From the NCBI RefSeq assembly GCF_033954835.1, contig NZ_CP121471.1, forward strand, positions 4,086,501-4,150,500: DNA of 64,000 nucleotides, written 5' to 3'. This DNA is from Thiorhodovibrio frisius (GTDB taxonomy: Bacteria; Pseudomonadota; Gammaproteobacteria; Chromatiales; Chromatiaceae). The notes under the pieces were generated by a model that saw nothing but the letters and a program-made list of their open reading frames with translations, was not told where the DNA came from and made no database searches. Positions 6,126-37,428 of the stretch are shown in pieces. Made by a program: the position numbers and the translations under genes. The stretch's first letter is position 1. Every line of letters starts with the position of its first letter.

Positions 6126-6357
6126 GCATGGCCTCCCGGGGCGATGGGGTTGGAAACGCCAACCGGCGGGTCGCCTGCGTCCGCACTGACGAACGCCCGA
6201 AAACCCAGGTTCAGCGCTGTTTAAAACCAATCTGCCCGGGGCCAGGCGCAAAGGCCAGGTCCGGGCCACCCGGAAAAATACCAGAAAATGCAGGTTGACA
6301 TAGGCGGGATTTTTTTGACCGAATCGATGCGACTCACTCATCTCGGCCGACGGCGCG

Positions 6358-6790: not shown

Positions 6791-6945
6791 TAGTAGAATG
6801 ATATCAACAATGATCCTACTTGAATGTGATTGCTTGAGGGCGTTTTCCCGCCCGACTCAAGCTCGGGACGGGTCGGTTATACTCTGCCCCCTTCACCGGT
6901 TTCAGCCTCCAGCCCGTTTTCCAACTACGCAGTTTTCCACTCAAA

Positions 6946-23739: not shown

Positions 23740-24213
23740 CCAGTTCAGGTCATTCACCAAGGAATGGGCTGTCTCAACCCATCAACACAGAAAGCCCTCC
23801 TTCCATCAGACCACCCATGTTTCTCGCGCTTGGCTCCATTGGTGTGAATCGCATCGGCTCTCGTTTTCACGCGCAGAGTCCTCTCGGTGTAGGGGCGTGT
23901 TAGACCAATGCAATCTCCCAAACCGCCACTCCTTTGCTCGACCCGCATTACCGGGCGTCATCGCTCATACGAGTGGCTCCGACTTCCAGCAACCACCGCC
24001 GATGTCCTCGTTGATTAGACTTGTTCATCGGTGCCCACCTCCCGCAGACCGGCTGTTGGATCTCCCTGGTTACCACGTGCTCTCAATGTAAGGCTCGATA
24101 CGGCCTCGGACCCCGGGGAGTCTCCATGCCACTGACCTTGACGCGACATGGAGTGTTGCCTGCCGGGGGGACAAACCCGTCGGCACTCTCCGACAAATTC
24201 TTTTCGGGGCTCT

Positions 24214-24223
24214 ACACCTTCAG
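24214..24223 (+). other. attL core
   Basis: ACACCTTCAG, identical to the copy at 35960-35969 and to the single copy at the same point in the intact intron 43343-44143. Confidence 0.85.
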
Positions 24224-24354
24224 TACTGAAAAGGTGACTTTGCAACCGCTTGTGTTTACAAGAAAAATTGCCTAGGCGCCTGTTTTTTCGTTGTTTTTCG
24301 GTTTATCAAGCGTTATCATTGAGTCTCAATCGGTCGCAGGTATTTGCACAATTC

Positions 24355-24375
24355 TGTAGCCTAGGAGTAGCCTAG
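24355..24375 (+). other. Probable integrase arm-type sites, left
   Basis: Two direct GTAGCCTA units 11 bases apart. The right end has the same arrangement and orientation (35892-35912). Paired arms at both ends are typical for tyrosine integrases. Confidence 0.65.
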
Positions 24376-24460
24376 AAACTCGCGACCGAAAAAGCGAAGC
24401 CGAGCGGTGCTGCCAACACCTGCCCAGCTTCTGTCACAACCGCCGACAGGAGGCAAAGCC

Positions 24461-25780
24461 GTGACTGACTCAAAGATACCCCATCCGCCGTTCAAATTCA
24501 CCGACGCGCGTCTGAAGGAGCTCAAGCCAGCGGCCGCGCGCTATCAGGTTCGCGACACCGAGCAGCGCGGTCTAGTCTGTGTCGTTCATCCATCTGGCCA
24601 GCGCTACCCCAACGGCCGCCGCGTCCTGCAAGTCTACGCCCGCGCCAAGGGCATCGCCGCGCCCGTGCGCGTGAATATCTGCGAAGTGGGCGAATTACCC
24701 ATGACCGCGCTCAAGGGCGATGCAAGCGTTCGTGCGCGCGCTGCTGAAATCCTTGGCCAGCTGCGCCAGGGCATCAACCCCAACGAGCACCGCCGCGAGC
24801 AGCAAGCCGAGCAGCGCCGCCAGGCCGAGCAGGATCGCATCTCGAATGTCACCCTTGGCGAAGCGTTCGAGCTTTATCTGGCCACCAAACCAATCGGCCC
24901 CAGGACGCTCGAGTATTACCGGCTTTCTATCAATCGCGACTTAGCCGACTGGAAGGACAAGCCGCTCGCCTCGATCACCGGGCAAATGGCCGTGAGCAGG
25001 TTCGCGGAGCTTGCCAAACGCTCGAGCAACACGGCCGCGACCGTGGTCAAGGTCTTTCGCGCGATTCACCGGTTCGCCTCGGAATACTACGGCGACGACG
25101 ACAACGAGTTGCCGTTCGGCCGCTGCCCGGTTGCCAAGGTCAATAAAATCTTCACCGGCTGGGCCAAGACCGAGGCCAGGACGCGGCGACTGACGACCGA
25201 TGATCTTGCCCCTTGGCTGGCAGCGGTGCGCGACCTGCCGAACCATCAGCGCCGATGCAGCGGCGAATATGCCCGCGTGGCCGTTTATATGGAGATGATG
25301 TTACTAACCGGACTGCGCCGCCGGGAAGCGGCATTTATCCGCTGGGCAGACGTGGACCTGGCGCGCGGAACCATGATCGCGCGCGATACCAAAAACGGCA
25401 GCGACCACACCTTGCCCATTACCGCGCGCGTGCGCCAACTGCTGGAGTTGCGCCGCCAAGCGGACCCGAACAGCCCGTTCATCATCGGTAGCACCAAGGT
25501 CAATCGGAACGTGGATCTGATCGAGAAGCAGACCGGCATCCGCATCAGCCCGCACGACCTGCGCCGCACATGGGCCAGCATGGCGGACAAGTGCGGAACC
25601 GGCAGTTACGGCATCAAGGCCGCGCTCAATCACAAGTCAGGCGATGACGTGACCGGCAAGCATTACGCGCAAGTCTCGACTGAGGATCTGCGCCCCATCA
25701 TGCAGCGCGTGGAGGATTTTATTCTGCGCCATGCCGAGCAGCGTGACGATAACGTGGTCAGTCTGCGAGGTGCAGCATGA
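24461..25780 (+). CDS. int: Tyrosine integrase of the satellite-like element
   Basis: The protein is about 439 residues from the GTG at 24461, chosen because ACAGGAGG lies eight bases upstream; the frame is open for 18 more codons. It has an N-terminal arm-binding region, a core-binding domain (about 140-260) and a catalytic domain with Arg in TGLRRREA (about 286), Lys in TKNGSDH, the HDLRR box (about 365-369), His in NHKSG and the nucleophile Tyr in KHYAQ (about 403). All catalytic residues are present. It should recombine the ACACCTTCAG cores. It overlaps the next gene by four bases. Confidence 0.95.
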   Translation: MTDSKIPHPPFKFTDARLKELKPAAARYQVRDTEQRGLVCVVHPSGQRYPNGRRVLQVYARAKGIAAPVRVNICEVGELPMTALKGDASVRARAAEILGQLRQGINPNEHRREQQAEQRRQAEQDRISNVTLGEAFELYLATKPIGPRTLEYYRLSINRDLADWKDKPLASITGQMAVSRFAELAKRSSNTAATVVKVFRAIHRFASEYYGDDDNELPFGRCPVAKVNKIFTGWAKTEARTRRLTTDDLAPWLAAVRDLPNHQRRCSGEYARVAVYMEMMLLTGLRRREAAFIRWADVDLARGTMIARDTKNGSDHTLPITARVRQLLELRRQADPNSPFIIGSTKVNRNVDLIEKQTGIRISPHDLRRTWASMADKCGTGSYGIKAALNHKSGDDVTGKHYAQVSTEDLRPIMQRVEDFILRHAEQRDDNVVSLRGAA

Positions 25781-26355
25781 TCCAGCTGCCGCCCGCGCTC
25801 GCGAATCCGCCCGACGGACGCTATAGCCTCGACCAAGCGGTAACGGTCTGGCTGGCGATCTATCACGGTTATCAGCCTGGTTCGCCTGATAGCCTCGACT
25901 TTCGCCGCGCACGCCAGCGGGCAGCGCGGGAGTTGGAGCCAATCATTCAGCATGAAACCCCATCCGCTCCAACCGGACCGCGAATTGTGCGCCGCCAATC
26001 AACATGGTTCGACCATGCCCGCAACACACCGCGCGAGTCATCAAGGCGAGTCATCAAGCGAACCATCGCCTCGGTCACAAAATCCGACATGATCGAGCTC
26101 GCACGCCAGCATGGTATCGAGATGGAGCCCCAGGTACAGCGGGAGCCGATGGAGCGGCAAGCCGAGCAGGTTAGGCGCAAGTCGCCCGGTCGACCGGCTA
26201 AGATACCGCCTGAAGCGCTCGACGAATACGACCGCCTTCGCAGTCAAAACATCATCATTGAAGCGGCAACGAAAGAAGTGGCCGAGAAGTTCTGCATTGA
26301 TAAGCCTGACAGCATCCGCACAGCATCAGACCGACGAAAGCGCGAACGCGAATAA
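25777..26355 (+). CDS. Hypothetical protein coupled to the integrase
   Basis: The 192-residue frame begins with ATGA overlap on the integrase stop. I do not recognise a family. The N-terminus is neutral and helical; the C-terminal half is strongly charged (SPGRPAKIPPEALDEYDRLR) and ends in RRKRERE, suggesting nucleic-acid binding. A short RSPGRPAK-like hook could contact the minor groove. A hairpin terminator follows, so integrase and this gene form one unit. Confidence 0.7.
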   Translation: MIQLPPALANPPDGRYSLDQAVTVWLAIYHGYQPGSPDSLDFRRARQRAARELEPIIQHETPSAPTGPRIVRRQSTWFDHARNTPRESSRRVIKRTIASVTKSDMIELARQHGIEMEPQVQREPMERQAEQVRRKSPGRPAKIPPEALDEYDRLRSQNIIIEAATKEVAEKFCIDKPDSIRTASDRRKRERE

Positions 26356-26380
26356 GCGACGCAAAAGCTAACCAACACCA

Positions 26381-26405
26381 AACCGCCGCCATGGCGGTTT
26401 TTTAT
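26381..26405 (+). terminator. Rho-independent terminator of the integrase unit
   Basis: AACCGCC pairs with GGCGGTT around a short loop and is followed by six T on the plus strand. Confidence 0.88.
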
Positions 26406-26415
26406 TGCCTGCCGT

Positions 26416-26445
26416 TCGGACAAATTCGGACAAATTGTTTTGTCC
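26416..26445 (+). promoter_or_regulatory. Operator-like repeats before the replication operon
   Basis: TCGGACAAAT occurs twice head to tail (26416-26435), followed by the inverted GTTTTGTCC (26437-26445). They lie about 110 bases before the AlpA-like gene and may bind the element's regulator. Confidence 0.5.
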
Positions 26446-26556
26446 ATATTATCCAGTTTTATCCGAATCAGAACAGGGATTTACTTCAACCATCGCCACC
26501 GGCAAACAAGCGCTAACAACCGTTAGCACCGGATAAGGCGATGGAGATTGAAGCGA

Positions 26557-26769
26557 ATGAAGACCCACCTACGAAACGCAATGCCTGATGCTAAGCCTAC
26601 AGCATCAAGCGTCAAATCCTTTTGCCAGCGCTACGACATCAGCGAACCGACCTTTTATCGGCATCGCGCGTCAATGCCCGCATGCATCCGCATTGGTGGC
26701 CAGTTGCGCATCACCCAGGCAGCCGAGCAGCAATGGCTCGAGCAGGCAGCGCAAGGGAGGGCAGCGTAA
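26557..26769 (+). CDS. AlpA-like / excisionase-type HTH protein
   Basis: A 70-residue protein with a helix-turn-helix VKSFCQRYDISEPTFYRHRA and the following strand RIGGQLRIT is typical of AlpA/excisionase-like winged helices, in which a tail then ends QWLEQA. Such proteins act as transcription activators or recombination directionality factors in P4-like and PICI satellites. I start at the ATG 26557, with GGAG about ten bases upstream; a TTG three codons earlier is less likely. It is the first gene of a tightly overlapped operon. Confidence 0.75.
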   Translation: MKTHLRNAMPDAKPTASSVKSFCQRYDISEPTFYRHRASMPACIRIGGQLRITQAAEQQWLEQAAQGRAA

Positions 26770-27278
26770 TGGATGCAATGGAGCGAATTGATAACGCTGT
26801 TCGCGACGACATCGCGCGAATTGAAGCGGCTGGCTATCCAACTGCGGTAATTCGCAACAGAGATGACGTCGACTCGGCTTATATCGACTGGTGGACCGAT
26901 CCTCGGTCAGACCTGTTCGCTGAATTGACCGACGGCATTCGGGAAGGGCACATCAAGATGAGTGACGCGAGCTGGCATCGCGAGCTTGATGAGGTTATCG
27001 CGCATCAAAACGCGCTGGTCGATCAGACGCTCGAAGTTCTGCGCAAGACCGGCAACGTCGACGATCTTTGTCAGTTGATCGATGACACCGCCGAGATTGA
27101 TTCGGCTGATTCGCCGATGACTGGCGCGGGCTCTTTTCTGCGCACCATAGCCGAGCTGGCGATGGAGCGGATTCAGCAAATGGAAAGCGCTCGACCGGCC
27201 GGCACCGGTACGAGCGCAGAGCAGAACGATCTTTTCGGTTCTGATTATAGCAGCCAGGGAGGGGCGGGCAATGCGTAG
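26769..27278 (+). CDS. Hypothetical acidic protein of the element
   Basis: The 169-residue frame starts at the ATG that overlaps the previous stop by one base (TAATG) and overlaps the next gene by eight bases. I do not recognise it. It is acidic, predicted helical and soluble, with a middle section suggesting a helical bundle. Its place among replication genes suggests an early function. Confidence 0.65.
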   Translation: MDAMERIDNAVRDDIARIEAAGYPTAVIRNRDDVDSAYIDWWTDPRSDLFAELTDGIREGHIKMSDASWHRELDEVIAHQNALVDQTLEVLRKTGNVDDLCQLIDDTAEIDSADSPMTGAGSFLRTIAELAMERIQQMESARPAGTGTSAEQNDLFGSDYSSQGGAGNA

Positions 27279-27831
27279 TTACGCAACCATCGATCCGGCC
27301 CGCTGGATGAAGGATTACCGAACCGCAATCCGCCTCGGAAGCGTGGAGTTCAAAACGCTGATTTTTTGTGAGACAGCGCCAGAGTCGCATCCAAGCGGGC
27401 TGTATTTCATCACCAGCGCAGCGGTCGCGAGCATGATCGAGGAGCCGACTGATCTGGTTGACCTGGCGTTCGACAATCTCGACCGTGCTGGCCTTCTTTT
27501 GCGCGACCCGGAGTGGCAGTTGGTCTATCTCCCAGGCTACTGCGCTCGCCAGTTCGGTAAATGGAGGGACACAGAACGCGCATCAAGAGACTGGAAGACA
27601 GTTTCCATCAAGCGGCATATTGCAAGCCTTCCGCCTTCACACTTGGTCGGCTTGTTTCTCGAATCGTGGCCTATCTTCACGCCCGAGGAAAGCCCCTTAC
27701 AAGCCCCTTACCAAGCCCCTACCCAAGCCCCAAGTACTAAATCTAAAGCCGACAGGGGCATTGGACAGGGCAAAACGGCCCAAGTCGCGACCATCCACAA
27801 TCTGGCGAACCGGCTGGGAGGTGGATCGTGA
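27271..27831 (+). CDS. Putative phage-type replication protein (winged-helix N-terminus)
   Basis: The 186-residue protein starts with a region like the N-terminal winged-helix domains of phage replication organisers (SGLYFITSAAVASMIEE, then DNLDRAGLLLRDPEWQLVYL). It is followed by a Pro/Gln-rich linker containing APYQAPTQAP repeats and a basic tail. The linker is encoded by repeated CCCCTTACCAAGC-type units. It lies directly before the primase gene and overlaps it by four bases. The assignment rests on architecture and context. Confidence 0.5.
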   Translation: MRSYATIDPARWMKDYRTAIRLGSVEFKTLIFCETAPESHPSGLYFITSAAVASMIEEPTDLVDLAFDNLDRAGLLLRDPEWQLVYLPGYCARQFGKWRDTERASRDWKTVSIKRHIASLPPSHLVGLFLESWPIFTPEESPLQAPYQAPTQAPSTKSKADRGIGQGKTAQVATIHNLANRLGGGS

Positions 27832-28850
27832 ACGACTACCTTTCCCGCTTGCTCACCGACAATGGCGCGGTCGAGATCCGGCATCAAGCCGATGGGCGCT
27901 GGAGATCCGGCTGGTTCGACGCGATCGAGCCCATGGTTCGCGAGATTCAGCGCCTTGGTTCGCGCGGAAATCTCTACACCAGCCTGAACGCACCTAAGCC
28001 TCGCCGCTGCCCGAACGCCATGGCCGGAGATCCGGTTCGGAATGATGACATCGGCTGGCTGACCCGAATCCCGTTCGACTTCGATCCGGTTCGCCCGGTC
28101 GGAGTCTGTTCGACCCAGACCGAGCTAGATTCAGCACTCCAGCGCCGTGACGCCCTGGTGGCGATGCTGCGCAAGTCTGGATGGCCGAGGCCCCTGGTCG
28201 CTTGCTCAGGCAATGGAGCCCATGCGCAGTTCCGATGCCGGCTTCCAAGCAGCGCGGAGACAGCCGAGCAGTTCCGCGCGATCTACACCGGCCTTGCGCT
28301 CGAGTTCGGCGACGATGAAGTCGGATTCGACAAGACGGTTCGCAATCCCGGCCGAATCTTTCGACTTTACGGCACCTGCAACCGCAAGGGACCGCATACA
28401 GCCGAACGGCCGCATCGGCTGGCGACTTGCGACATTCCCAGGCCATGGAGCCAAGTCAACCACCGGCTGATTGACCGCCTCGCGAATCGGTTCGCACGGT
28501 CGCAGACGCCAGCGCAAACGCCGCTAAATCGCCCTGAAAGCCGCCCGCGAGTCTCAGGGCATGGTGACTATGCCACCTTGGACGTGGTGGCTCTGACGCG
28601 CTCACACGGGCTCTACAGGCATGAGCTCGGCAGCGGCACCCATGCCATTGTTTGCCCATGGGAGTCAGAGCACAGCACCCCGCGCGGCCGCTCGGATACC
28701 GTCATTTTTGAGAACGGCCCGGGCAAGTGGCCAGGTTTTCACTGTCATCATGGACATTGCCAGGGCCGCAGCATCCGAGACCTGATCGAAGTGCTCGGAG
28801 ATGCGGACGCATTTTGCTCGGCACCGTGGACTGGGAGGGCAAGCGCATGA
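27828..28850 (+). CDS. AEP-superfamily primase (prim-pol) of the element
   Basis: The 340-residue protein has the archaeo-eukaryotic primase motifs in order: IPFDFDPV with the two metal-binding aspartates (about residues 81-88), ACSGNGAHAQF (about 124-134, the SxH motif), and RIFRLYGTCNRKG (motif III). A C-terminal zinc-binding region (CPWESEH, then FHCHHGHCQG) follows. It should synthesise primers for replication of the element. Start and stop overlap both neighbours by four bases (ATGA). Confidence 0.88.
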   Translation: MNDYLSRLLTDNGAVEIRHQADGRWRSGWFDAIEPMVREIQRLGSRGNLYTSLNAPKPRRCPNAMAGDPVRNDDIGWLTRIPFDFDPVRPVGVCSTQTELDSALQRRDALVAMLRKSGWPRPLVACSGNGAHAQFRCRLPSSAETAEQFRAIYTGLALEFGDDEVGFDKTVRNPGRIFRLYGTCNRKGPHTAERPHRLATCDIPRPWSQVNHRLIDRLANRFARSQTPAQTPLNRPESRPRVSGHGDYATLDVVALTRSHGLYRHELGSGTHAIVCPWESEHSTPRGRSDTVIFENGPGKWPGFHCHHGHCQGRSIRDLIEVLGDADAFCSAPWTGRASA

Positions 28851-30319
28851 AATTCGCCCTTCATACATTCCAAAAAGACATTTTGAACGAACTGCGCCAA
28901 GGGCACGCCAAGGGCCATCGTCGACAACTTTGTGGACTCGCGACTGGTGGAGGCAAAACCGTGGTGGCATCGCATGCAATCCACAGCGCCGCGCAAAAAG
29001 GAAGGACATCGCTGTTCATCGTCGACCGCATCGAGTTGGTCGGTCAGGCCGCACGGACACTTACCGAGATCGGGCTTCAAGTAGGAGTACTTCAGGGCGA
29101 CAACACGCGCCTTCACCCAGACGACGAATGCATCGTCGCCAGCATTCAGACCATCCGCGCAAGGGAAGCGCCGCCGGCTGGGTTCGTGGTTATCGACGAA
29201 GCGCACATCTTGCACCGAGCACACGTCGACCTGATGCGCAGATGGGATCGGGTTCCATTCATCGGCTTATCGGCAACACCGCTGCGCCCTGATCTCGGCC
29301 AGCACTTCAGCAACTTGGTAAGAGGCCCAACGGTCGCATGGCTGACTGAAAATGGATTCTTGACTCCGGTCAAAGCCTACTGCCCGATGCAAGAAAAGAT
29401 CGACGCAGCGCTGGAGTCGGTCAAGGTGCGCGCTGGCGACTTTGTGGAGTCTGAGTTATCTGAGGCATTCAGGCGCAAAGAGCTTGTCGGCGACGTCATC
29501 TCGGAGTGGAAGGCCAGAGCATCTGACCGTCCGACGCTGGTGTTCGCAGTCGACATCGCTCACTCGAAAGCCATCATCGGCGACTTTCTGGACGAAGGAA
29601 TCGCCGCCCAACACCTGGACGCATACACCAAGCCCGAGGAACGAAGGGACATCATCGCGCGATTCAAAGCCGGCGAGATCCGCGTTCTTAGCTCTGTGAA
29701 CGTGCTCGGCATTGGCTTTGATTATCCTGGCGCATCGTGCGGCATTCTGGCACGCCCGACGCTGAGTGAAGCGCTCCACATGCAGCAACTCGGACGCGTC
29801 ATCCGCACCGCACCCGGCAAGCAGGACGCCATCATCCTCGACCATGCAGGCAATACGATTCGGTTCGGACTCCCCGAGCACTTTGTCATCCCGGACCTTG
29901 GACAAGGCGAGCACCAAAGCGCCAAGACAAAGCGCAAGCAAAAGACCATGGCCACCTGCAAAAGCTGCCATGCGGTGATCGAGCCCGGCTCCGAGACCTG
30001 CCCGCATTGCGGCATCGACCGGCCGCTGCGGTCTGCTGACGTGGTTTACATCGATGGGCGCCTCGGAGAGTACGGCAAGCCGACCACCGGCACCGAGGAT
30101 CAAGCTGACCGGAGATCCTGGTATCAGGCATTTTTGTGGGAAGCAGAATCCCGAGGCATCAAACGCGGCTGGGCATTTTTCGCCTTTCAAGCCAAGTTCA
30201 ACGCCAAGCCCGCCTGGTCATGGCAAAACCTGCCGCCGCTCGAGCCGACATGGGAGCAGTCGCGATGGATTCGGCATCACCGCATCAAGCAGGCCAAGGC
30301 ATTCAGAGCGGCATCCTGA
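28847..30319 (+). CDS. DEAD/DEAH-box (SF2) helicase with zinc ribbon
   Basis: The 490-residue protein starts at the ATG 28847, which overlaps the primase stop. Motif I is ATGGGKT (32-38), motif II DEAH (118-121), motif III SATP, and motif VI QQLGRVIRTA. After the two helicase domains comes a CKSC/CPHC zinc ribbon (about 370-390) and a C-terminal region seen in phage UvsW/RadD-like helicases. It probably opens DNA for the primase beside it. Confidence 0.9.
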   Translation: MKFALHTFQKDILNELRQGHAKGHRRQLCGLATGGGKTVVASHAIHSAAQKGRTSLFIVDRIELVGQAARTLTEIGLQVGVLQGDNTRLHPDDECIVASIQTIRAREAPPAGFVVIDEAHILHRAHVDLMRRWDRVPFIGLSATPLRPDLGQHFSNLVRGPTVAWLTENGFLTPVKAYCPMQEKIDAALESVKVRAGDFVESELSEAFRRKELVGDVISEWKARASDRPTLVFAVDIAHSKAIIGDFLDEGIAAQHLDAYTKPEERRDIIARFKAGEIRVLSSVNVLGIGFDYPGASCGILARPTLSEALHMQQLGRVIRTAPGKQDAIILDHAGNTIRFGLPEHFVIPDLGQGEHQSAKTKRKQKTMATCKSCHAVIEPGSETCPHCGIDRPLRSADVVYIDGRLGEYGKPTTGTEDQADRRSWYQAFLWEAESRGIKRGWAFFAFQAKFNAKPAWSWQNLPPLEPTWEQSRWIRHHRIKQAKAFRAAS

Positions 30320-30549
30320 TGACGGAGTTCCAGACCGATGATGCCAGGGAGGGCATGACCTGCGAGCAAGTCGCGCGCGAGCTCGGCATCTCGCCCAGCC
30401 GCGTGGCTGCAATCGAGCGGCAGGCCATCGCCAAGTTAAGGCGCATGATCCACAGCGGCAAGGTGGCCGCGCCAGAGCTTCCAGAGCGCCCCGACCTGCA
30501 AGGCGAGCATCGGCTGTTGCTGGCGCTCGGTTCCCCCCTGGACACCTAG
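30319..30549 (+). CDS. Sigma-70 region-4-like HTH regulator
   Basis: The 76-residue protein begins at an ATG overlapping the helicase stop by one base. Its centre, MTCEQVARELGISPSRVAAI followed by ERQAIAKLRRM, matches the sigma factor region 4 helix-turn-helix. It lies at the boundary between the replication genes and the head genes, so I infer that it switches on the head operon. A small late activator is a usual satellite component; this is inference. Confidence 0.7.
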   Translation: MTEFQTDDAREGMTCEQVARELGISPSRVAAIERQAIAKLRRMIHSGKVAAPELPERPDLQGEHRLLLALGSPLDT

Positions 30550-30631
30550 CCAGAGGGTTGTTCGGGGCTCGCCGTTCACATTCTGCGTGGCTCGCGAAAT
30601 CGAGTTGTAGTATTACCTATCGAGCACCACC

Positions 30632-31012
30632 ATGACCCCAGCGCGCATCGACTTTTTCAGCCTGATAGAGCATCTGGTGACGGCGCCCAACGCGCCATTG
30701 CCGCCCGATCTGCGCCTGTATCTGCTGGCCGCCATCGCCTCACACCTGAAGGACGGCGAAAGCATGGACGTGGCCCTTGGCGTGCGTGAGCCATCCCGCC
30801 CCACCGCCGGACGGCAGTGGCGCGTTGCACAGCGCAATGAACACCTGCGCGCGACTGGCATGGACGCAAGCACGCTAAAACTGGCCATCAGTCGCTATCG
30901 CCGCCGGGCCCCAGGGCGCCGCACCAGCGAAGTCGACCGCCACCTTGCCGAGGCTGAGCGATGGGCCAGCTTGCCCGAGTCGGTTCCCCAGCTGCGCCGC
31001 ATCCTCGGCTGA
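30632..31012 (+). CDS. Hypothetical protein at the start of the head gene group
   Basis: The 126-residue protein is unrecognised. It has a hydrophobic N-terminal third (PDLRLYLLAAIASHL) and an Arg-rich C-terminal half (LAISRYRRRAPGRRTSEVDR). An 82-base gap before it is the likely site of a promoter for the head genes. It could be a packaging or regulatory factor. Confidence 0.6.
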   Translation: MTPARIDFFSLIEHLVTAPNAPLPPDLRLYLLAAIASHLKDGESMDVALGVREPSRPTAGRQWRVAQRNEHLRATGMDASTLKLAISRYRRRAPGRRTSEVDRHLAEAERWASLPESVPQLRRILG

Positions 31013-31053
31013 GATCAAAACCCCCATGGTGGTTATGATCCGCACCCTAACCC

Positions 31054-31512
31054 ATGCTTGTGGCATCGCAGCCCAACAACAAACTGAGCATGGCCAAACA
31101 ACCCACCGACATCCCCGGCGCCATCGAGCGTCTGACCGCCCGCATCGAATCCGCCAAGTGCGAACGCGATGACCTGCGCCGCGTGCGCCGTTCGCGTGAT
31201 GACGTTATCGCCGCTGCCGATGCCGCAGTCGATGTCGTTGCCGCCCGCTGCCCCGAACGGCTCAAGGGCAAGCTCACCAGTCTGAGCGCACCGCACGCGC
31301 CGCCGCTGCGCCTGTTCACCGGCCCCGATGCCGAGCTGCTGACCTTTCTACTCCGCGACCGGATGAAGGACGCCATCCGCCGCTCCGCGCCCAATCTCCC
31401 CGATCCGCCAGCCGACCGCGAGCCCCGCCTGGCTGCGCTCGAGGCCGAAATTGCCAGCCTGCAAGCCGAGCTGGCCGCTATCCACTCCCGCATTGAGGCC
31501 CATCGCTCATGA
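31054..31512 (+). CDS. Hypothetical coiled-coil protein
   Basis: The frame gives 152 residues from 31054 or 140 from the ATG at 31090; neither has a clear ribosome-binding site. Residues 20-45 and the last 35 residues are heptad-like (LAALEAEIASLQAELAAIHS), so a coiled coil is likely. It overlaps the gpD-like gene by four bases, which suggests a head-related role such as scaffold or completion. No family was recognised. Confidence 0.6.
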   Translation: MLVASQPNNKLSMAKQPTDIPGAIERLTARIESAKCERDDLRRVRRSRDDVIAAADAAVDVVAARCPERLKGKLTSLSAPHAPPLRLFTGPDAELLTFLLRDRMKDAIRRSAPNLPDPPADREPRLAALEAEIASLQAELAAIHSRIEAHRS

Positions 31513-31895
31513 CCATTCATGTTTCCCAAACATCCGATGCCTACGCCCCGCAAGAGCTGGTGCATGGCAACACCCACATGTTGCTTGCCGAAAAGGTCAC
31601 TGTCGCCAGTGGCCAGACCTTGACCGCCGGCGCCATCCTCGGCAAGGGCGCCGCAAGCAAGTATTACACCGCATCCTTAAACGACCTGGCTGGCGATCCG
31701 GTAGCCGATGGCCGCGATGATCCGGTAGGCATCCTCGCCCACGATGTCGATGCCAGCACCGCCGATCAAAGCGCGCTGATGTATACCCGTGGCGACTTTA
31801 TCGAGGGCGCCTGTGCCGCTGATAGCAGCCTGAATGCCGCCACCGTCAAGGCCGCGCTCCGCGCCTTGAATATCTACCTGATCGCCGCTGAATAA
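31509..31895 (+). CDS. Lambda gpD-like head decoration protein
   Basis: The 128-residue protein has the look of the gpD family: a Thr/Ser-rich extended start, GQTLTAGAILGKGAASK, a Gly/Asp loop, and an ending with ALRALNIYLIAAE. In lambda, gpD trimers clamp the expanded capsid. It is followed by the gpE-like gene after 11 bases, the same D-E order as in lambda. Confidence 0.85.
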   Translation: MTIHVSQTSDAYAPQELVHGNTHMLLAEKVTVASGQTLTAGAILGKGAASKYYTASLNDLAGDPVADGRDDPVGILAHDVDASTADQSALMYTRGDFIEGACAADSSLNAATVKAALRALNIYLIAAE

Positions 31896-31906
31896 GGACA
31901 CCCGCC

Positions 31907-32935
31907 ATGTATGACACGACATCGCTCGCTCGCCTGATTGAGAACATCCCAACGCCCTCGAGCGCGCTGCTGGACCTGTTTTTCCCCAACGTCCAAACCA
32001 GCCCGAGTGAGGAAATTGCTTTCGATATTCGCGACGGCTCGCGCCGCATCGCGCCCTTTGTCTCGCCGCTGGTCGCTGGCAAGGTCATGACCGATCGCGG
32101 TTACACCACCAAGAAATTCGCACCGGCGTACATCAAGACAAAATCCGTGGTCGACAACACCCGCCCGCTCAAGCGCCAAGCCGGCGAGACCATCGGCGGT
32201 TCCGTTCACCCCGCTGAACGCGAGCAAGCGCTGGTCGCCATGTTGGCCAAGGATCACGTCGACATGATCCATCGGCGCCTGGAGCTCATGGCCGCCGAGG
32301 CCCTGGTGTCAGGCCAAGTCACCGTGAGCGGCGATCAATACCCGACGCACGTGGTGGACTTCGGGCGCAAAGCCGAGCACACCGTCAATATCGCCACCGG
32401 CGCCGGCGACTGGGCAGAGCCCGCCACCAGCACCCCGGCAAACGACCTGCAAGACTGGTCAATGCTGATCCTCCAGGCGTGCGGACAACGCCCCAGCGCC
32501 GCCGTCATGGGCTTGGGCGCCTATCAGGCCATGATTGAGCATGCGGACGTGCAAGAGCGCCTGGAGACCCGGCGCCTGCTCGGCACCGAGCTGCGTGGTG
32601 GCCCGATCCTCGAGGCCCCTGGCTTGTCCTACATGGGCGAACTCGACGGACTGCCGATCTACGTGCATGTTGACTGGTACATCGACCCCGACACCGGCGA
32701 CGAATCGCTGATTGTCCCGACCAACAAAGTCATCATGGCCGCGCCAGCGCTCGAGGGCACCCGCGCCTTTGGTGCGATCCGCGACCATGACCTTGGGTTT
32801 ATCGCGCAACCTTTCGCGAGCAAGAGCTGGACCGACGAAGACCCAAGTGTCAGGTATCTGCTGACCCAATCGGCGCCGCTCATCATCCCGGTTCAGCCCA
32901 ACGCATCGCTATGCGCGAAGGTCATTGACGACTAA
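31907..32935 (+). CDS. Lambda gpE-like major capsid protein
   Basis: The 342-residue protein has the length and layout of the gpE family: an N-terminal segment LFFPNVQTSPSEEIAFDIRD, the region RGYTTKKFAPAYIKTKSVVD, and a C-terminal domain with TNKVIMAAPALEGTRAFGAI and SVRYLLTQSAPLIIPVQPNA. It forms the icosahedral shell of siphovirus heads. The frame is complete, without stops, and close in codon use to its neighbours, so it may be functional. Confidence 0.93.
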   Translation: MYDTTSLARLIENIPTPSSALLDLFFPNVQTSPSEEIAFDIRDGSRRIAPFVSPLVAGKVMTDRGYTTKKFAPAYIKTKSVVDNTRPLKRQAGETIGGSVHPAEREQALVAMLAKDHVDMIHRRLELMAAEALVSGQVTVSGDQYPTHVVDFGRKAEHTVNIATGAGDWAEPATSTPANDLQDWSMLILQACGQRPSAAVMGLGAYQAMIEHADVQERLETRRLLGTELRGGPILEAPGLSYMGELDGLPIYVHVDWYIDPDTGDESLIVPTNKVIMAAPALEGTRAFGAIRDHDLGFIAQPFASKSWTDEDPSVRYLLTQSAPLIIPVQPNASLCAKVIDD

Positions 32936-32982
32936 TCGCCCTGGACGGCTCAATTTTGAGCCGTCCAACCCGGAGACACCCC

Positions 32983-33900
32983 ATGGCAAAGAAAGTATTG
33001 ATTGAAGGCGTCATTGGCGCGGACACCACCGCCTCGGGCATCCGTGCCGCGCTGGAGGGCGCCACCGACATCGAGCTCCGCATAAACTCCCCAGGCGGCG
33101 ATGCCTACGAGGGCATCGCCCTGCATAACCTGCTGGCCGAACATCGCCGCGCTGGGCATCGCATCGAGGCTGTTGTCGATGGCATTTGCGCCTCGGCAGC
33201 TACCTACATCGCCGCCGCCGCGCATCATGTGAGCGTGCCAGAGAACGCCGTCTGGATGGTACATGAGCCGCATAGCTCCGCCATCGGCACAGCGGCCGAC
33301 TTCGCTAGCGCCAGCAAGCAGCTGGCCGCATTGGCCGAGATCATGGTCGACGGCTACGCCGCACGCACCAAGCGCACGCGCGGCGAGATCGCCAACGAGC
33401 TGAAGGCGGAAACCTTCTACTACGGCCCCGAGATTATTGCCGCCGGTTATGCCGACGCCGCCTTGCCCGCCCTGGCACAGCACAGCGGCGAGCGCGTCCA
33501 GGCTGTTGCGCTCGCACGTGGCGCCGTGGCCAACGCCATGGCCAAGCTACAGGCCACCCCCGTGAGCGCGCGTGCACCAGCACCACCAGAGGCTGTCGCG
33601 CCCGAGCCATCGGCCGTCGCCGAGCGCGAGCGCATCCTGGCCATTATCCGCGCCTTAGGCTTGACCGACGCACGCGGCCAGACTGCGATGGAGCTCGCCA
33701 GCGACCCACATATCACCGCTGAAAGCGCCGAGCGCATTCTGGCCACTATGGCAACCCCAGGCCGCACGCCCGAGGCACAAGCCCGGCTGGAGGATGAATG
33801 GGTAAAGCGCGGCGGTCCCGAGATTCGCGGCCATCACAGCGCCGGGCTTGGGGAGGGCGGCAAGCCCGACTGGCAACGCCTGCTAGAGCGCATCGCCTAA
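32983..33900 (+). CDS. ClpP-like head maturation protease
   Basis: The 305-residue protein starts at the ATG 32983 behind GGAGA. It has the ClpP/S49-type core: RINSPGGDAYEGIALHN (oxyanion region), nucleophile Ser about 71 in GICASAATY, and His about 94 in WMVHEP. A long C-terminal tail rich in Ala and Pro (from about residue 185) may be a scaffold-like extension, as in lambda gpC. It stands behind the capsid gene, whereas in lambda-type heads the protease gene precedes it. Confidence 0.9.
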   Translation: MAKKVLIEGVIGADTTASGIRAALEGATDIELRINSPGGDAYEGIALHNLLAEHRRAGHRIEAVVDGICASAATYIAAAAHHVSVPENAVWMVHEPHSSAIGTAADFASASKQLAALAEIMVDGYAARTKRTRGEIANELKAETFYYGPEIIAAGYADAALPALAQHSGERVQAVALARGAVANAMAKLQATPVSARAPAPPEAVAPEPSAVAERERILAIIRALGLTDARGQTAMELASDPHITAESAERILATMATPGRTPEAQARLEDEWVKRGGPEIRGHHSAGLGEGGKPDWQRLLERIA

Positions 33901-34099
33901 TCGAATTGGCATGGCGTCCAATGCCCTATCCGATGCGCAATCTCTGGACGCGCATTGGTAGCAGACGCGCCGCCGGTCGCGTGGGCGATACCGGCAACTG
34001 ATTTTTGTCCGTGGTTCCCCCTTGGCGCCTTTTTACTTGCGGGTTTTCCGGCCGCGATGGTTCACCAGCCACAGACCCGCCTAAGCTCCACCACAACCG

Positions 34100-34558
34100 A
34101 TGCAAGTTTCAATCAATCAACTGAGCGAATGGACCGGGCTCGACCGCAGAACCGTCAAGCGTCGGCTGGCTGACCTGCCCCACAAGCCCGGCCCCAACCG
34201 CGCGCACGAATACGAAAGCGCTGTCGCCTTGCGCCTGATCTTCGGAAGCGGCAACCCGGACGGCGACCGCCTTGACGGACAGCAAGAGAAGGCCCGGCTC
34301 GACAAGGTGCGCGCGGATATTGCCGAAGTTGAGCTCGAGCGCAAGCGCGGCGATCTGATCGACGTGGATGCAGTGACTCAGACTTGGGAACGCCTGGTAT
34401 CCGTCGCCAAAGGCCGGTTCATGGCACTGCCGACGCGCCTGAGCTATGACCTGGCCGGGCTCAGTGAGCCTCGCGAAGCCGAGCGGCTGCTGAAGAACGC
34501 GATATGGGAAGTGCTGACTGAGTTGGCCGACGGCGATCCGCTACCGGCTGGTGAGTGA
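34100..34558 (+). CDS. Nu1-like terminase small subunit
   Basis: The 152-residue protein has an N-terminal winged HTH (ISQLSE-type: SINQLSEWTGLDRRTVKRRL), a charged helix KARLDKVRADIAEVELERKR, and a C-terminal helical domain (ARFMALPTRLSYDLAGL-like). This is the Nu1/DUF1441 small terminase layout. It should bind a cos or pac site. No large terminase is encoded, so it would have to work with that of a helper phage. A 199-base gap without a clear gene lies before it. The tandem hairpin element begins about 115 bases behind it. Confidence 0.8.
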   Translation: MQVSINQLSEWTGLDRRTVKRRLADLPHKPGPNRAHEYESAVALRLIFGSGNPDGDRLDGQQEKARLDKVRADIAEVELERKRGDLIDVDAVTQTWERLVSVAKGRFMALPTRLSYDLAGLSEPREAERLLKNAIWEVLTELADGDPLPAGE

Positions 34559-34673
34559 CACCTCTGCAACGATCATTGCACCGCCTTCAACCCCACCGGC
34601 AAGCCGCTGCTTCTGGTGGCTGGTTCGCGCATGAACACCCGGCAGGCCGGGCGCCCCAGGGGAACCTAGCCCC

Positions 34674-34702
34674 GTGTAATCCGGGAAAATCCCACATTAC
34701 AC
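34674..34702 (+). other. Long imperfect hairpin behind terS
   Basis: GTGTAAT and ATTACAC flank an inner GGGA/TCCC stem with an AAA loop; only two positions do not pair. No T-run follows, so it is not a typical terminator. Confidence 0.6.
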
Positions 34703-34712
34703 GCGACAGCAC

Positions 34713-34790
34713 CACCATCGGCATGGATTTTCCTTGTTTGCTCAAGTAGTTAGAGGGCCGAAAATTCGGCTCTCTAAATCCTTGAGAACA
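34713..34790 (+). ncRNA. Covarying hairpin element, copy 1
   Basis: A 78-bp unit: conserved 5' block CACCATCGGCATGGATTTTC, an outer stem TCAAG/CTTGA, an inner perfect 12-bp stem (TTAGAGGGCCGA with its partner; one G-T pair), AAAT loop, end GAGAACA. Compared with copy 2 the inner stem changes at six positions, yet every pair is kept. It could be a structured RNA or a folded DNA site. Confidence 0.7.
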
Positions 34791-34872
34791 GTCGGAATGC
34801 TGACCTGATCCATGGTCGGTTCGGACCGATGCTATCCGATTGCACCGACCGATGGACAGATTCGACCATCGT

Positions 34873-34950
34873 CACCATCGGCATGGATTTTCCTTGGCTG
34901 TTCAAGTAGTTGGACAAGCCAAAATTGGCTTGTCTAAACTCTTGAGAACA
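34873..34950 (+). ncRNA. Covarying hairpin element, copy 2
   Basis: Same 78-bp layout as copy 1, with inner stem TTGGACAAGCCA and its full complement (one G-T pair). Four stem positions show double compensatory changes relative to copy 1, while the 5' block, outer stem and AAAT loop are conserved. Confidence 0.7.
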
Positions 34951-34961
34951 TCCGCCTCGGT

Positions 34962-34977
34962 ACATCCCCCAGTGGGG
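34962..34977. repeat. Short repeat ACATCCCCCAGTGGGG, copy 1
   Basis: The 16-bp sequence contains a CCCC-AGT-GGGG hairpin and recurs exactly at 35759-35774, where it encodes the end of the RHH gene. The two copies bracket that gene and its operators. Confidence 0.6.
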
Positions 34978-35148
34978 AAAGTACGGCCGCCCGGCGCCGC
35001 GCTCATTGCGCCAGCCATCCCCAGGCTGAAACCGCCCCAGCGGGCAAGCTGTGCGGTCGTTTTTGCCAGATTCGGCGAAAAGGCCATGGGCGCCGATCTA
35101 ATTACGCAAATCTGCGCAGTTCCCCCGCGCGCGTGGGCGCAGCTGCCC

Positions 35149-35209
35149 GTTACTGAATAACGCTTGACCGTTACTGAGTAACAGACTATCCTCACTGTTA
35201 CTGAGTAAC
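35149..35209 (+). promoter_or_regulatory. Promoter with three palindromic operators of the RHH gene
   Basis: GTTACTGAATAAC (35149-35161) and GTTACTGAGTAAC (35170-35182 and 35197-35209) are 13-bp palindromes. The second fills the spacer between a TTGACC -35 (35164-35169) and a TATCCT -10 (35187-35192), so a bound protein would block transcription. Confidence 0.8.
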
Positions 35210-35225
35210 AAAAGAGGGTAAGCAG

Positions 35226-35777
35226 ATGGGCATGACCAACGCAGAACGCCAGCGCCGCTATCGCGAGCGGCACCTGAAAGACGTCGACGCCCAAGGTGAG
35301 CGCATCGCCCTGGTGGTCACTGTGCAAGCCAAGGCTGCGCTTAACCGGCTGGCAAGCTGGCATGGCACAACCCAGCGCCAAGCACTCGAGCAAGCGCTGA
35401 TCGAGTCTCAGGCACGCATTATCAACACCCTTACCGGCGAGCAGCAAAACGCCTTCCATGATGGCAAGCTGACAGCTAGCGCGTTACCGAGTAACGGACA
35501 CCCCGAGCCGTTACAGGGTAACGACACCCTGCCGCATGATGCCAAGGTTAAGCGTTTGCGCAGCACTGTTTCCGGGTTGCTCCAAACCGAGGAAGCGCTC
35601 CATAAAGAAGCTCGCGAGCTCCGCGCGCATCTGAAAAACCGGGATGCTCAGATTGAGCATCAAAAGACAATGCGCGCAGCGGTCGAACGCGAGCGCGATA
35701 TGGCAAAGGCTGAAGTCTCCCGGCTGAAAAGCGCAGCACGTGGGCCAACCTGCCCAGCACATCCCCCAGTGGGGTAA
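35226..35777 (+). CDS. Ribbon-helix-helix DNA-binding protein with coiled coil (autorepressor or partition-like)
   Basis: The 183-residue protein has an N-terminal basic region (AERQRRYRERHLKD), a ribbon-helix-helix-like segment (RIALVVTVQAKAALNRLASW, then QALEQALIE, about residues 25-60) and a long charged coiled coil (about 100-170), an architecture like KfrA-type or centromere-binding proteins. Five copies of GTTACnnnGTAAC lie upstream of and inside the gene, which makes autoregulation likely. The last codons lie in the short repeat at 35759-35774. It is the last gene of the element. Confidence 0.75.
   Translation: MGMTNAERQRRYRERHLKDVDAQGERIALVVTVQAKAALNRLASWHGTTQRQALEQALIESQARIINTLTGEQQNAFHDGKLTASALPSNGHPEPLQGNDTLPHDAKVKRLRSTVSGLLQTEEALHKEARELRAHLKNRDAQIEHQKTMRAAVERERDMAKAEVSRLKSAARGPTCPAHPPVG
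35483..35522. promoter_or_regulatory. Two further GTTACnnnGTAAC palindromes inside the RHH gene
   Basis: GTTACCGAGTAAC (35483-35495) and GTTACAGGGTAAC (35510-35522) lie 27 bases apart, the same spacing as the second and third upstream copies. Confidence 0.75.
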
Positions 35778-35891
35778 GTGTCCCCAGGCCAACGCATCTT
35801 TGCACTGGCGCCGGTGCACTTCCGATTGCACTGCCCGGTAGAAAATTACCGGCTGACGCGGCCATCATCGTCGCACTACACTATTCGTGAG

Positions 35892-35912
35892 TGTAGCCCA
35901 AGCGTAGCCCCA
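35892..35912 (+). other. Probable integrase arm-type sites, right
   Basis: Two direct GTAGCCC units 11 bases apart, matching the pair at 24355-24375. The 35778-35959 end region holds no gene. Confidence 0.6.
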
Positions 35913-35959
35913 CCGCGAAAGATAACGACTAACCGTTTGCGCTGAAAGCAGTTTTTCTA

Positions 35960-35969
35960 ACACCTTCAG
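35960..35969 (+). other. attR core
   Basis: Second copy of ACACCTTCAG; right of it the group II intron sequence resumes. Confidence 0.85.
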
Positions 35970-36131
35970 GGGCGGCTTCACCCGCTACCTTTGCACCTCG
36001 CCTGTTTTCATGCCTACGCACCGACGCGTCAGTTACCCTTCGCGCCGTAAGGCTTGATACCGGGCTCGCGGCTCACGATTACCCGGGCGGGACTCTAACC
36101 CGCTAGAGCACGCGGCCTTGCCAGGCCGCAC
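35960..36131 (-). mobile_element. RT-less group II intron copy 1, 5' part
   Basis: The minus strand begins at 36131 with the intron 5' consensus-like GTGCGG and runs through domain I sequence matching 43972-44143 with one visible difference. It ends at the satellite attachment site. Confidence 0.85.
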
Positions 36132-36419: not shown

Positions 36420-36821
36420 TCAGCGCCAAACAGGAACTCTCATGGTGTCGAAGTGGTGATCATAAGTCCACACCGGCAAGCTCAACCGTAACGCCACAGT
36501 CGCAAGGGTCGCATCAAACAACGTGATAGTCTGATCTTGATAACGACCGACAACCACGGTGGCGTCGCGATAATCCTGAGGGCTTGGATTCATCCAAGCA
36601 CTACCTGCTCGCACATCATCGAGCCAGGCGGATGCACTTGGAAAACCTAGTCGATACAGGATCAGGGAATAGGCCTCCGAGAGGATCGGGTAGACGATCA
36701 CGACCGACACGCCCGCATCGGCCAGGTTCGTCATCTGCTCCTGGGCACGATCATGGTATTGGTCGTCTGGATCAACCGCCGCATAGAGCGGCCCCGTATC
36801 GGCAAGGACGGTCCGGATCAT
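36420..36821 (-). CDS. VapC-like PIN-domain toxin
   Basis: The 133-residue protein has the PIN pattern: VLADTGPLYAAVDPDD with the first acidic residue at about 8, an acidic residue in ILSEAYSL, then TLFDATLATVA (about 99-109) and TYDHHFD near the end. It should be an RNase toxin. Its start overlaps the antitoxin stop by four bases, as usual in vapBC pairs. Confidence 0.85.
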   Translation of the reverse strand: MIRTVLADTGPLYAAVDPDDQYHDRAQEQMTNLADAGVSVVIVYPILSEAYSLILYRLGFPSASAWLDDVRAGSAWMNPSPQDYRDATVVVGRYQDQTITLFDATLATVALRLSLPVWTYDHHFDTMRVPVWR

Positions 36822-37054
36822 GCGCCAGACAAATACCGGTCGTGCAAAACGCTGACATCGTCATGGCCACTACCTTGCTGAGACGGTCGGATGCGTAAGG
36901 CCGCCGAGCTTGGCAGATAACCGCGCTCGCCGAGGAACTCCCGCACGGCCGACTGAACAACCGTGCTGAGTTGGACTGGCTCCGGCTGCTCAGCAACAAA
37001 TTGCACAAGCGCCTGGTCAATATCATCCGGAAGGGTAATGGTTGCGCGTCTCAT
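36818..37054 (-). CDS. VapB-like ribbon-helix-helix antitoxin
   Basis: The 78-residue protein begins RRATITLPDDIDQALVQFVA, a classic ribbon-helix-helix start, followed by a helix with SAVREFLGERGYL and a flexible toxin-binding tail. Its ATG lies at 37054, right behind a truncated Rpn-type start (MTADTQATESPDE in another frame), so it is probably expressed from the Rpn start module at 37086. Confidence 0.8.
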   Translation of the reverse strand: MRRATITLPDDIDQALVQFVAEQPEPVQLSTVVQSAVREFLGERGYLPSSAALRIRPSQQGSGHDDVSVLHDRYLSGA

Positions 37055-37395: not shown

Positions 37396-37428
37396 GAACC
37401 GGACTTGGAGTGTTACACCATCCGGCTC
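37396..37428 (-). ncRNA. Group II intron domain V (RT-bearing copy)
   Basis: Same 33-nt hairpin as the other two copies (starts GAGCCGGATGG, ends AAGTCCGGTTC). The RT stop codon at 37413 lies inside it, so the coding frame runs into the catalytic domain. Confidence 0.88.

Follow-up and report, generated by a model that had tools for sequence, protein, structure and literature searches.

The element at positions 24214 to 35969 of the window (the whole 64,000-nucleotide stretch of Thiorhodovibrio frisius DNA analyzed here) is probably a PICI-like phage satellite. On the strength of its sequence, it is predicted to make its own heads, alone or together with helper gpE, on a portal supplied by a helper phage, and to use its own small terminase subunit (TerS) to recruit the helper's large subunit (TerL). 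It spans 11.76 kb (about 11.8 kb), all of its genes point in the same direction, and it carries a set of shell genes with no match to portal, TerL, or tail profiles.

An island integrated at a group II intron

The element is bounded by exact 10-bp repeats (Table 1) and is flanked on either side by the group II intron RF02005 (Rfam). A 108-base query joining both flanks, corresponding to the empty site, was searched against the host's own genome. Of the 18 rows returned, 11 were full-length copies at 100% identity, 1 was a partial copy, 4 were copies at 89 to 92%, and the remaining 2 were half-sites at the element's own ends. The repeats and the 11 exact empty copies bear out the exact ends claimed in an earlier note on this DNA and give the element a specific attachment site, as in Gram-negative PICIs (GN-PICIs), here within a group II intron. 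The element is thus a site-specifically integrated island that is predicted to be mobile. Its frames, described earlier as intact, are indeed all open, with tight overlaps.

Table 1. Features of the element (window coordinates)
Feature	Position	Strand	Evidence or remark
Left attachment repeat, 10 bp, ACACCTTCAG	24214..24223	+	In domain I of group II intron
Tyrosine integrase, 457 aa	24407..25780	+	Phage_integrase 9.5e-15
192-aa protein	25777..26355	+	No significant profile match; homologues in related islands L060, L063
AlpA-like HTH protein	26548..26769	+	HTH_17 0.0035, below Pfam cut-off
169-aa protein	26769..27278	+	Function not assigned by profile searches
186-aa protein	27271..27831	+	DnaD-like helicase loader, weak match (0.012)
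AEP-like primase, 340 aa	27828..28850	+	Motifs by eye
SF2 helicase with zinc ribbon	28847..30319	+	ResIII 1.5e-16; phrog_16 5e-82
Sigma-70 region 4-like HTH protein	30319..30549	+	Profile match 6.6e-8
o126, 126 aa	30632..31012	+	Common to seven satellites clearly, two weakly
o152, 152 aa	31054..31512	+	Directly 5′ of gpD; coiled-coil-like by eye
gpD head decoration protein (HDPD)	31509..31895	+	3.1e-15
gpE major capsid protein (MCP), full length	31907..32935	+	Phage_cap_E 9.2e-71, profile positions 1-329/329
ClpP-type head maturation protease, 305 aa, C-terminal extension	32983..33900	+	CLP_protease 2.4e-17; phrog_133 4.5e-40
Nu1-like TerS	34100..34558	+	phrog_57 1.9e-22; DUF1441 1.9e-7, below Pfam cut-off
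Two long hairpins (34735-34790, 34895-34950)	34735..34950	+	Candidate origin or packaging region
Five GTTACNNNGTAAC palindromes, one mismatched	35149..35522	+	Within and 5′ of o183
o183, putative repressor	35226..35777	+	Plasmid RepA-type regulators, weak match (0.0084)
Right attachment repeat, 10 bp, ACACCTTCAG	35960..35969	+	Exact repeat

The backbone of the element matches islands L058 to L060, where no capsid gene was detected, and three relatives of the integrase (55 to 57% identity) are located in tRNA-Met islands. Among the gene assignments proposed in the earlier note, the integrase, the helicase, and the sigma-like HTH protein were upheld by profile matches, while the AlpA-like regulator gave a weak one. 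The AEP primase stays a reading of motifs seen by eye (FDFDP, SGNGxH, and FRLYGTxNRKG), for which profile searches gave no confirmation. Full-length primase relatives occur in 14 other genomes of the host's family, and a larger relative at locus L048 carries a RepB_primase domain. Locus L048 also has a CRISPR-like array of 61-bp repeats; its variable parts seem self-complementary by eye, but only one of three folded units beat its shuffles.

Near the 3′ end of the element, the inner stems of the two hairpins differ in sequence while keeping their pairing. GTTACNNNGTAAC has a sixth match elsewhere in the window, against a chance mean of 0.25.

A shell set lacking portal and TerL

Residues 1 to 335 of gpE align to the 341-aa capsid structure 7vi9, which we take to be that of lambda, and residues 20 to 331 align to 3bqw, titled prophage capsid protein; gpE is thus complete. 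The protease retains the conserved ASAA and VH motifs, presumably catalytic. The similarity of TerS lies mostly past residue 49 and is to the TerS of eight loci, all eight with portal and TerL matches.

Six-frame profile searches (E ≤ 0.01) found no match in the element to portal, TerL, gpW, sheath, tape-measure, or major-tail families, and lysis families were absent from the Pfam matches of its proteins. The earlier description of a shell set without portal, TerL, or tail therefore stands. As a control, portal and TerL profiles were both recovered in 104 of 176 loci, a figure that is partly circular because 4 of the 104 are profile-source phages and the profiles were retrained on matches among the same loci. 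Of the genes that define capsid-forming PICIs (cf-PICIs), the element has its own MCP and head protease and lacks its own portal and large terminase; it also lacks the TerL, portal, tail, and lysis genes of a lambda-like prophage. The markers of P4-like satellites (psu, delta, sid, and P4 alpha) have no Pfam match among the 17 proteins scanned.

The earlier note had named portal or TerL homology in the two unknown proteins at 30632-31512 as a finding that would refute its reading. Profile searches revealed neither: o126 and o152 are too short and have no significant Pfam, PHROGs, or NCBIfam match, and a PDB profile search with o126 likewise returned no portal or TerL. Neither protein had a single-sequence tblastn match among 50,697 phage records, and neither has a PICI counterpart known to us.

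A lambda-like helper prophage, which the earlier note had proposed to look for, was not found with lambda-type models. PF05136, PF05876, and PF05119 had no match in the 5.4-Mb host genome, and therefore no helper prophage of this type is resident; the search covered lambda-type portal families, so that a non-lambda helper prophage would fall outside it. Three partial matches to phrog_2 (1e-6 to 1e-4) were rejected since the surrounding ORFs read as non-TerL proteins.

The cassette and its marker genes elsewhere

Searching for the same gene set elsewhere uncovered an island of equal size in Halochromatium glycolicum that has the cassette o126-o152-gpD-gpE-protease-o183 in common with the element, while its integration and replication genes differ. 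Identities are 77% for gpE, 67% for gpD, 47% for the protease, 46% for o152, 37% for o126, and 54% for o183, the last with the same palindromes present. The two gpE proteins form a 100/100 clade (stem 0.89) in an 83-row tree, and dN/dS (NG86) is 0.19/0.94 for gpE and 0.28/0.93 for gpD, with dS near saturation. This island, the closest cassette relative found, likewise lacks portal and TerL; relatives with a full phage module, which the earlier note had named as the sign of a decayed prophage, did not appear. No TerS was found in the Halochromatium element, and thus TerS is not invariably part of the set.

Seven satellites are clearly marked by o126; in two more, o152 is accompanied by a weaker o126. 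Portal and TerL profiles have no match in any of these nine signature elements. A capsid gene is present in eight, and two have late cassettes 97% identical on different backbones. Matches to o126 were found in at least 5 of 369, 2 of 398, and 2 of 85 genomes (the window's or the centre genome included each time), lower bounds because candidates in each genome were scored in part. One candidate, in G540 (L266), was a chance match within a host region and was dropped. For o152, 8 of 210 genomes matched, with strong scores in the window and Halochromatium and E values of 0.003 to 0.007 in the other six. An o152 scan of viral sequences gave no match; it is insensitive because L182, which has an o152 relative, went unfound. 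Viral scans with two-row gpE and protease alignments matched five loci. The G849 element (L272) combines a helicase, a weak o126, o152, a Phage_capsid_4 protein, and TerS; att ends were looked for there and none was found.

The 176 loci scanned comprised 104 with portal and TerL, 31 with portal only, 2 with TerL only, and 39 with neither. Among this last group are the window, L048 and L073 (one place twice), and L049 (no gpE). L182, a 7.5-kb contig, carries TerS, gpE, and an o152-like gene and is unmatched by portal and TerL profiles. Five loci with long flanks (L081, L151, L054, L055, and L149) were judged by eye to resemble phages that use other portal types. The other 29 are mostly short or cut near gpE.

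Comparison with known satellites

The element has the GN-PICI layout: int, an AlpA-type regulator (weak, 0.0035), replication genes, and late genes in the same direction, with no full head-tail module. EcCICFT073, an experimentally studied Gram-negative PICI (PMC6092414), is similar in size (about 10.7 kb from int to the last gene) and in its order of int, AlpA, primase, and late zone. Its sequence, which we checked, has a gpD-type gene and no portal or TerL, and its gpE-family MCP is 26% identical to the window gpE (3.8e-31). Its h145 protein, which we take to be RppA, matches the TerS profile (1.3e-5). EcCICFT073 differs in that gpE precedes gpD, the protease has no match, a TerS-mimic Rpp replaces TerS, and integration is between roxA and phoQ. 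The primases are unrelated: that of EcCICFT073 has no match to the window primase at 1e-4, and the window element lacks a PICI-type primase (Pri). The EcCICFT073 primase is 26.9% identical over 368 aa (2e-25) to an 899-aa protein of the Halochromatium element.

Of 29 reference GN-PICIs, 21 are reported to carry capsid genes (PMC10111431). In PICIs that have captured late-gene clusters, the late zone likewise consists of a selection of phage late genes, with CLP_protease in one genotype; these PICIs differ in being mostly Enterobacterial and in having other early modules (PMC10111431). The Vibrio crassostreae satellite-plasmid TG93 (PISP; 11.1 kb) also has Capsid protein E, a head maturation protease, and a small terminase; it is described without tail genes, and the text names no portal or large terminase (PMC13230959). 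TG93 is likened here by description, not sequence, and is a plasmid with maintenance genes and no integrase detected, whereas the window element is integrated and has primase, helicase, and gpD. cf-PICIs, by the definition quoted in PMC10690885, share with the element a capsid protein and protease of their own but in addition encode a portal, connectors, HNH, and the two terminase subunits. Of these, portal and TerL are missing from the element, and no connector turned up in it. The proper comparison is therefore with ordinary PICIs rather than cf-PICIs. The suggestion of an undescribed type of satellite is not supported, since the literature already has PICIs that combine a gpE-type capsid with the lack of portal and TerL (PMC6092414), as well as the Vibrio satellite-plasmid (PMC13230959). 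What is new is the unusual replication module, the fuller shell set, and the intron site.

A proposed satellite shell on a helper portal

Upon helper infection or induction, the element would excise and replicate with its own primase and helicase. gpE, gpD, and the protease would assemble a head on the helper portal, alone or mixed with helper gpE, and the satellite TerS would direct helper TerL to satellite DNA, the helper providing tail and lysis. Head size would be set by the satellite's capsid genes, and the larger helper genome would thereby be kept out. A precedent is SaPIbov5 Ccm, a satellite MCP homologue that is present in procapsids alongside helper capsid protein and portal (PMC8569155) and works with the helper portal (PMC8569155, PMC6893505); it is a single protein 23% identical to the helper MCP, whereas the window element encodes MCP, decoration protein, and protease. 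Besides this precedent, we count for the satellite model the exact ends, empty copies, complete gpE, kept protease motifs, recurring cassette, dN/dS, TerS likeness, and the nine signature elements. Against it we count the lack of a resident lambda-type helper, the non-PICI replication module, dS near saturation, and the Halochromatium island without TerS. The Halochromatium cassette and the nine elements support the earlier choice of satellite over prophage, and the idea of a borrowed portal, TerL, and tail appears right, although we infer the borrowing step itself.

A rather unlikely alternative is interference, in which satellite capsid proteins become part of the helper's heads and ruin them or reduce their size, or else are mere leftovers; in either case, heads made by the helper would carry the satellite DNA. 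EcCICFT073 was transferred equally well when either its capsid gene or its decoration gene was missing (PMC6092414), disruption of head assembly has been proposed for the Vibrio element, which encodes Capsid protein E, a protease, and a small terminase (PMC13230959), and Ccm acts through co-assembly (PMC8569155). A decoration protein and a protease nevertheless exceed the needs of a poison subunit, and the shell set is kept under purifying selection in two islands.

Decay of a prophage or cf-PICI that lost portal and TerL would account for the absence of both genes and for late genes that make up part of a lambda-like head module. We consider it very unlikely because Halochromatium repeats the portal- and TerL-less cassette and 0 of the 9 signature elements match the profiles. 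Moreover, the open, tightly overlapping frames, the match of the backbone to the capsid-less L058 to L060 islands, and the order gpD-gpE-protease-TerS, which deletion alone would not produce from the phage arrangement TerS-TerL-W-portal-protease-D-E, speak against it. An encapsulin-type storage compartment, with a shell not meant for DNA transfer, would fit the lack of a portal and the general kinship of the gpE fold with encapsulins, but is extremely improbable given the decoration protein, maturation protease, TerS, integrase, and replication genes, which point to a DNA-filled head, and the lack of an obvious adjoining cargo gene.

Returning to the helper-portal model, we tentatively propose a wider reading that we hold as possible rather than probable: o126 and o152 may mark a mainly Gammaproteobacterial satellite lineage that swaps ready-made late cassettes, with portal and TerL discarded as a rule. 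The cassettes are gpD-gpE-protease; a protease-MCP fusion with a neck protein; gpE with a tape measure; and TerS with tail fibre J. Satellite shells, and sometimes tail length or host range, would be imposed on a hijacked helper portal-motor, and o126 could be a late regulator tying the cassettes to the helper programme.

PICI-like satellites with capsid genes now extend to a probable purple sulfur bacterium, and satellites whose replication modules differ carry the shell cassette as a unit. The cassette is small enough for stand-alone expression, and it poses a testable question: can a shell encoded by a satellite, protease and decoration protein included, form on the portal of another phage and receive DNA from that phage's motor, or is the role of PICI capsid genes limited to disturbing the helper?

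An intron-borne island with capsid genes but no portal or large terminase

The exact ends claimed in the earlier note for the window element, an island of ~11.8 kb at 24214-35969, were confirmed as the repeat ACACCTTCAG at 24214-24223 and 35960-35969. The element has inserted into a group II intron (domain I) that exists in multiple copies sharing a stretch of ~800 bases. A search with the joined flanks returned 18 rows in total. Of these, 11 were identical full-length matches in the element's own 5.417-Mb genome, that is, empty sites, so the intact target occurs there at least 11 times without a change; the other rows included partial matches, copies at 89-92% and the two half-sites of the element itself. 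Three integrase relatives (L058, L059 and L060; 55-57% identity) lie in islands at tRNA-Met genes that are marked by long att repeats, which makes an intron look like an unusual target for this integrase group. By eye, a group II intron-type reverse transcriptase gene lies at window 37413-38813 (minus strand), and two overlapping small genes beside the right end (36420-37054, minus strand) resemble a toxin-antitoxin pair with a VapC-type PIN toxin.

All reading frames of the element are open, with tight overlaps. Profile searches recognized an integrase, an HTH protein, a helicase, the head decoration protein gpD, the major capsid protein gpE, a ClpP-type protease and a small terminase (TerS); gpE aligns with Phage_cap_E over the full length and also matches solved capsids. 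No portal, large terminase (TerL), gpW, sheath, tape-measure or major-tail match was found in the element at E ≤ 0.01, using profiles from at most four annotated phages retrained on matches among gpE loci. With these profiles, portal and TerL were detected together in 104 of 176 loci, the four source phages among them, and in phage relatives with other capsid types (L273, L274, L277 and L278). Family and profile searches thus bear out the gene combination without portal or TerL described earlier. The lambda-like helper prophage suggested as a further lead did not materialize: a profile search of the organism's own genome found neither a PF05136 portal nor a PF05876 TerL.

The capsid cassette and its backbone are separable

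A search for the same gene set in related genomes, as the earlier note had proposed, recovered the cassette in Halochromatium glycolicum DSM 11080, which belongs to the same family. Its island (L048) has the gene order of the window element: o126 (37% identity), o152 (46%), gpD (67%), gpE (77%), protease (47%) and the putative repressor o183 (54%). No TerS was found there by profile search, and the integrase and primase resemble those of the window element only remotely (27% and 26%). At the right end of the island (L048 15111-16024), 61-bp units that contain variable parts form an array with CRISPR-like spacing.

Conversely, the window primase was matched in 22 of 210 family genomes, at full length in 15, its own included. 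No gpE, gpD, protease, portal or TerL was found at E ≤ 0.01 in 15 islands or fragments (L058 to L072; several contigs are short), and among them TerS of the window type occurs in L060 only. Primase-bearing islands without capsid genes indicate that cassette and backbone are separable.

o126 and o152 occur in a wider set of satellites

Searching 369 Gammaproteobacterial genomes with the late gene o126 yielded at least four genomes besides its own, three of them with islands bounded by exact att repeats at tRNA genes (L263, L264 and L265). Together, nine elements carry o126 or o152, the gene upstream of gpD: o126 is clear in seven, and the other two have o152 and a weaker o126 (in L182, a remote match with hhalign probability 93%). 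A capsid gene is present in 8/9, TerS in 6/9 and mapped ends in 6/9; none of the nine gave a portal or TerL profile match, L275 and L182 being incomplete contigs. Neither o126 (two versions) nor o152 had a single-sequence tblastn match among 50,697 phage records.

Positions of features in the window and in compared loci
Feature	Locus	Position	Content
Group II intron RF02005 flanking the element (Rfam)	window	24101-24241; 35953-36096	
Uninterrupted RF02005 copies downstream of the element (Rfam)	window	41742-41989; 43859-44108	
Halochromatium island, ~11.8 kb	L048	4394-16261	tRNA-Gly to 50-bp copy of tRNA end
Satellite in tRNA-Leu	L263	5301-7823	TerS, 840-aa J-type central tail fibre
Satellite	L264		TerS, fused protease-capsid protein, neck protein
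Satellite	L265	2815-5310	gpE-type capsid protein, S49 protease, gpD, 831-aa tape measure protein
Satellite	L299	12678-15191	capsid protein 76% and tape measure 53% identical to those of L265
Element in genome G849	L272	6638-14540	helicase, weak o126, o152 (1.7e-19), Phage_capsid_4 protein (3.9e-55), TerS (1.7e-16)
7.5-kb viral contig	L182	888-6580	full-length gpE (1.4e-74), two TerS-like genes, o152 (8e-12)

A capsid gene was looked for in L263 and none was found. L265 and L299 have their own capsid and tape measure proteins, and no portal, TerL or further tail gene was found in either; L299, with a 58-bp att repeat at tRNA-Leu, yielded neither protease nor gpD. No att repeat was found for L272. 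Positions 6841-10370 of L264 and 5616-9145 of the viral contig L275 share 3,530 bases at 97.3% DNA identity, from the gene before o126 through the neck gene and including o126 and the protease-capsid fusion, whereas L275 has a different integrase, replication genes and TerS. So similar a late cassette on two different backbones indicates recent cassette exchange.

Substitution patterns and probable origin of the capsids

Between the window and Halochromatium islands, dN/dS values (NG86, with synonymous sites near saturation) were 0.19/0.94 for gpE, 0.28/0.93 for gpD, 0.48/0.87 for the protease, 0.39/1.08 for the N-terminal part of o183, 0.50/1.05 for o152 and 0.64/1.14 for o126. The shell-gene patterns fit purifying selection. 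A gpE tree of 83 rows combined four satellite gpEs (L182 was left out) with phage rows taken only from loci with portal and TerL, for which 12 of 33 eligible viral loci were chosen at random. The window and Halochromatium gpEs form a single clade (100/100, stem 0.89), and the capsids of L265 and of the studied Gram-negative PICI (GN-PICI) EcCICFT073 are placed elsewhere. The satellite label requires three changes on this tree, so these capsids were probably acquired independently.

Proposed mechanism

Upon helper activity, the element would excise and be replicated by its own primase and helicase. Its gpE, gpD and protease would assemble a head on the helper portal, either by themselves or together with helper gpE; its TerS would steer the helper's TerL to satellite DNA, and the helper would provide tail and lysis. 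On balance, we lean towards this portal-borrowing route. Two of four reference phages (L235 and L236) carry an unnamed small gene directly ahead of gpD, the place taken here by o152, which is therefore a candidate scaffold.

Palindromes of the form GTTACNNNGTAAC cluster in and around o183 in both islands, many of them 21-30 bp apart. The window element has five (35149-35522), with a sixth match elsewhere in the window (chance mean, 0.25), and L048 has nine (14435-15350; chance, 0.04). Two near-repeat hairpins at 34735-34790 and 34895-34950 (z of -6.5 and -5.1 versus shuffles) retain pairing in inner stems of different sequence, and a search of the organism's own genome with one of them returned just these two copies. 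An origin or packaging site may lie in these hairpins or in the palindromes next to TerS.

Relation to published satellites

The satellite interpretation of the window element is supported; the proposal that it is an undescribed type is not. EcCICFT073 encodes capsid and head decoration genes, and deleting either neither relieved interference nor changed transfer (PMC6092414). In the locus that we checked, its MCP matches the gpE profile at 1.7e-71 and h145 the TerS profile at 1.3e-5, with no portal or TerL profile match. Capsid genes are reported for 21 of 29 reference GN-PICIs, whose late zones were captured from phages, with a CLP_protease gene in one genotype (PMC10111431). Published PICI capsids of type PF03864 number 356, and the Vibrio satellite-plasmid TG93 has Capsid protein E, a protease and a small terminase (PMC13230959). 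Given these precedents, the combination of gpE, protease and TerS in a satellite that lacks portal and TerL does not amount to a new kind. Elsewhere, capsid-forming PICIs (cf-PICIs) are described as encoding portal and both terminases (PMC10690885), the SaPIbov5 capsid homologue Ccm as co-assembling with the helper capsid protein (PMC8569155, PMC6893505), helper TerS as redirected by Rpp (PMC6739421), and PLE-like and cf-PICI satellites as having putative tape measure genes (PMC12987554; for further satellite context, PMC12409344, PMC11389934 and PMC11364771). Among the matches listed for a host-genus search of the open-access literature, no paper names Thiorhodovibrio or Halochromatium; we do not claim that the islands are unpublished.

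We conclude with high confidence that the window element is a variant of the PICI-like satellites, from which it differs in its replication module, its fuller, gpD-containing gene set, its intron site and its host group. The o126 satellites differ from published ones in that whole late cassettes are exchanged among them.
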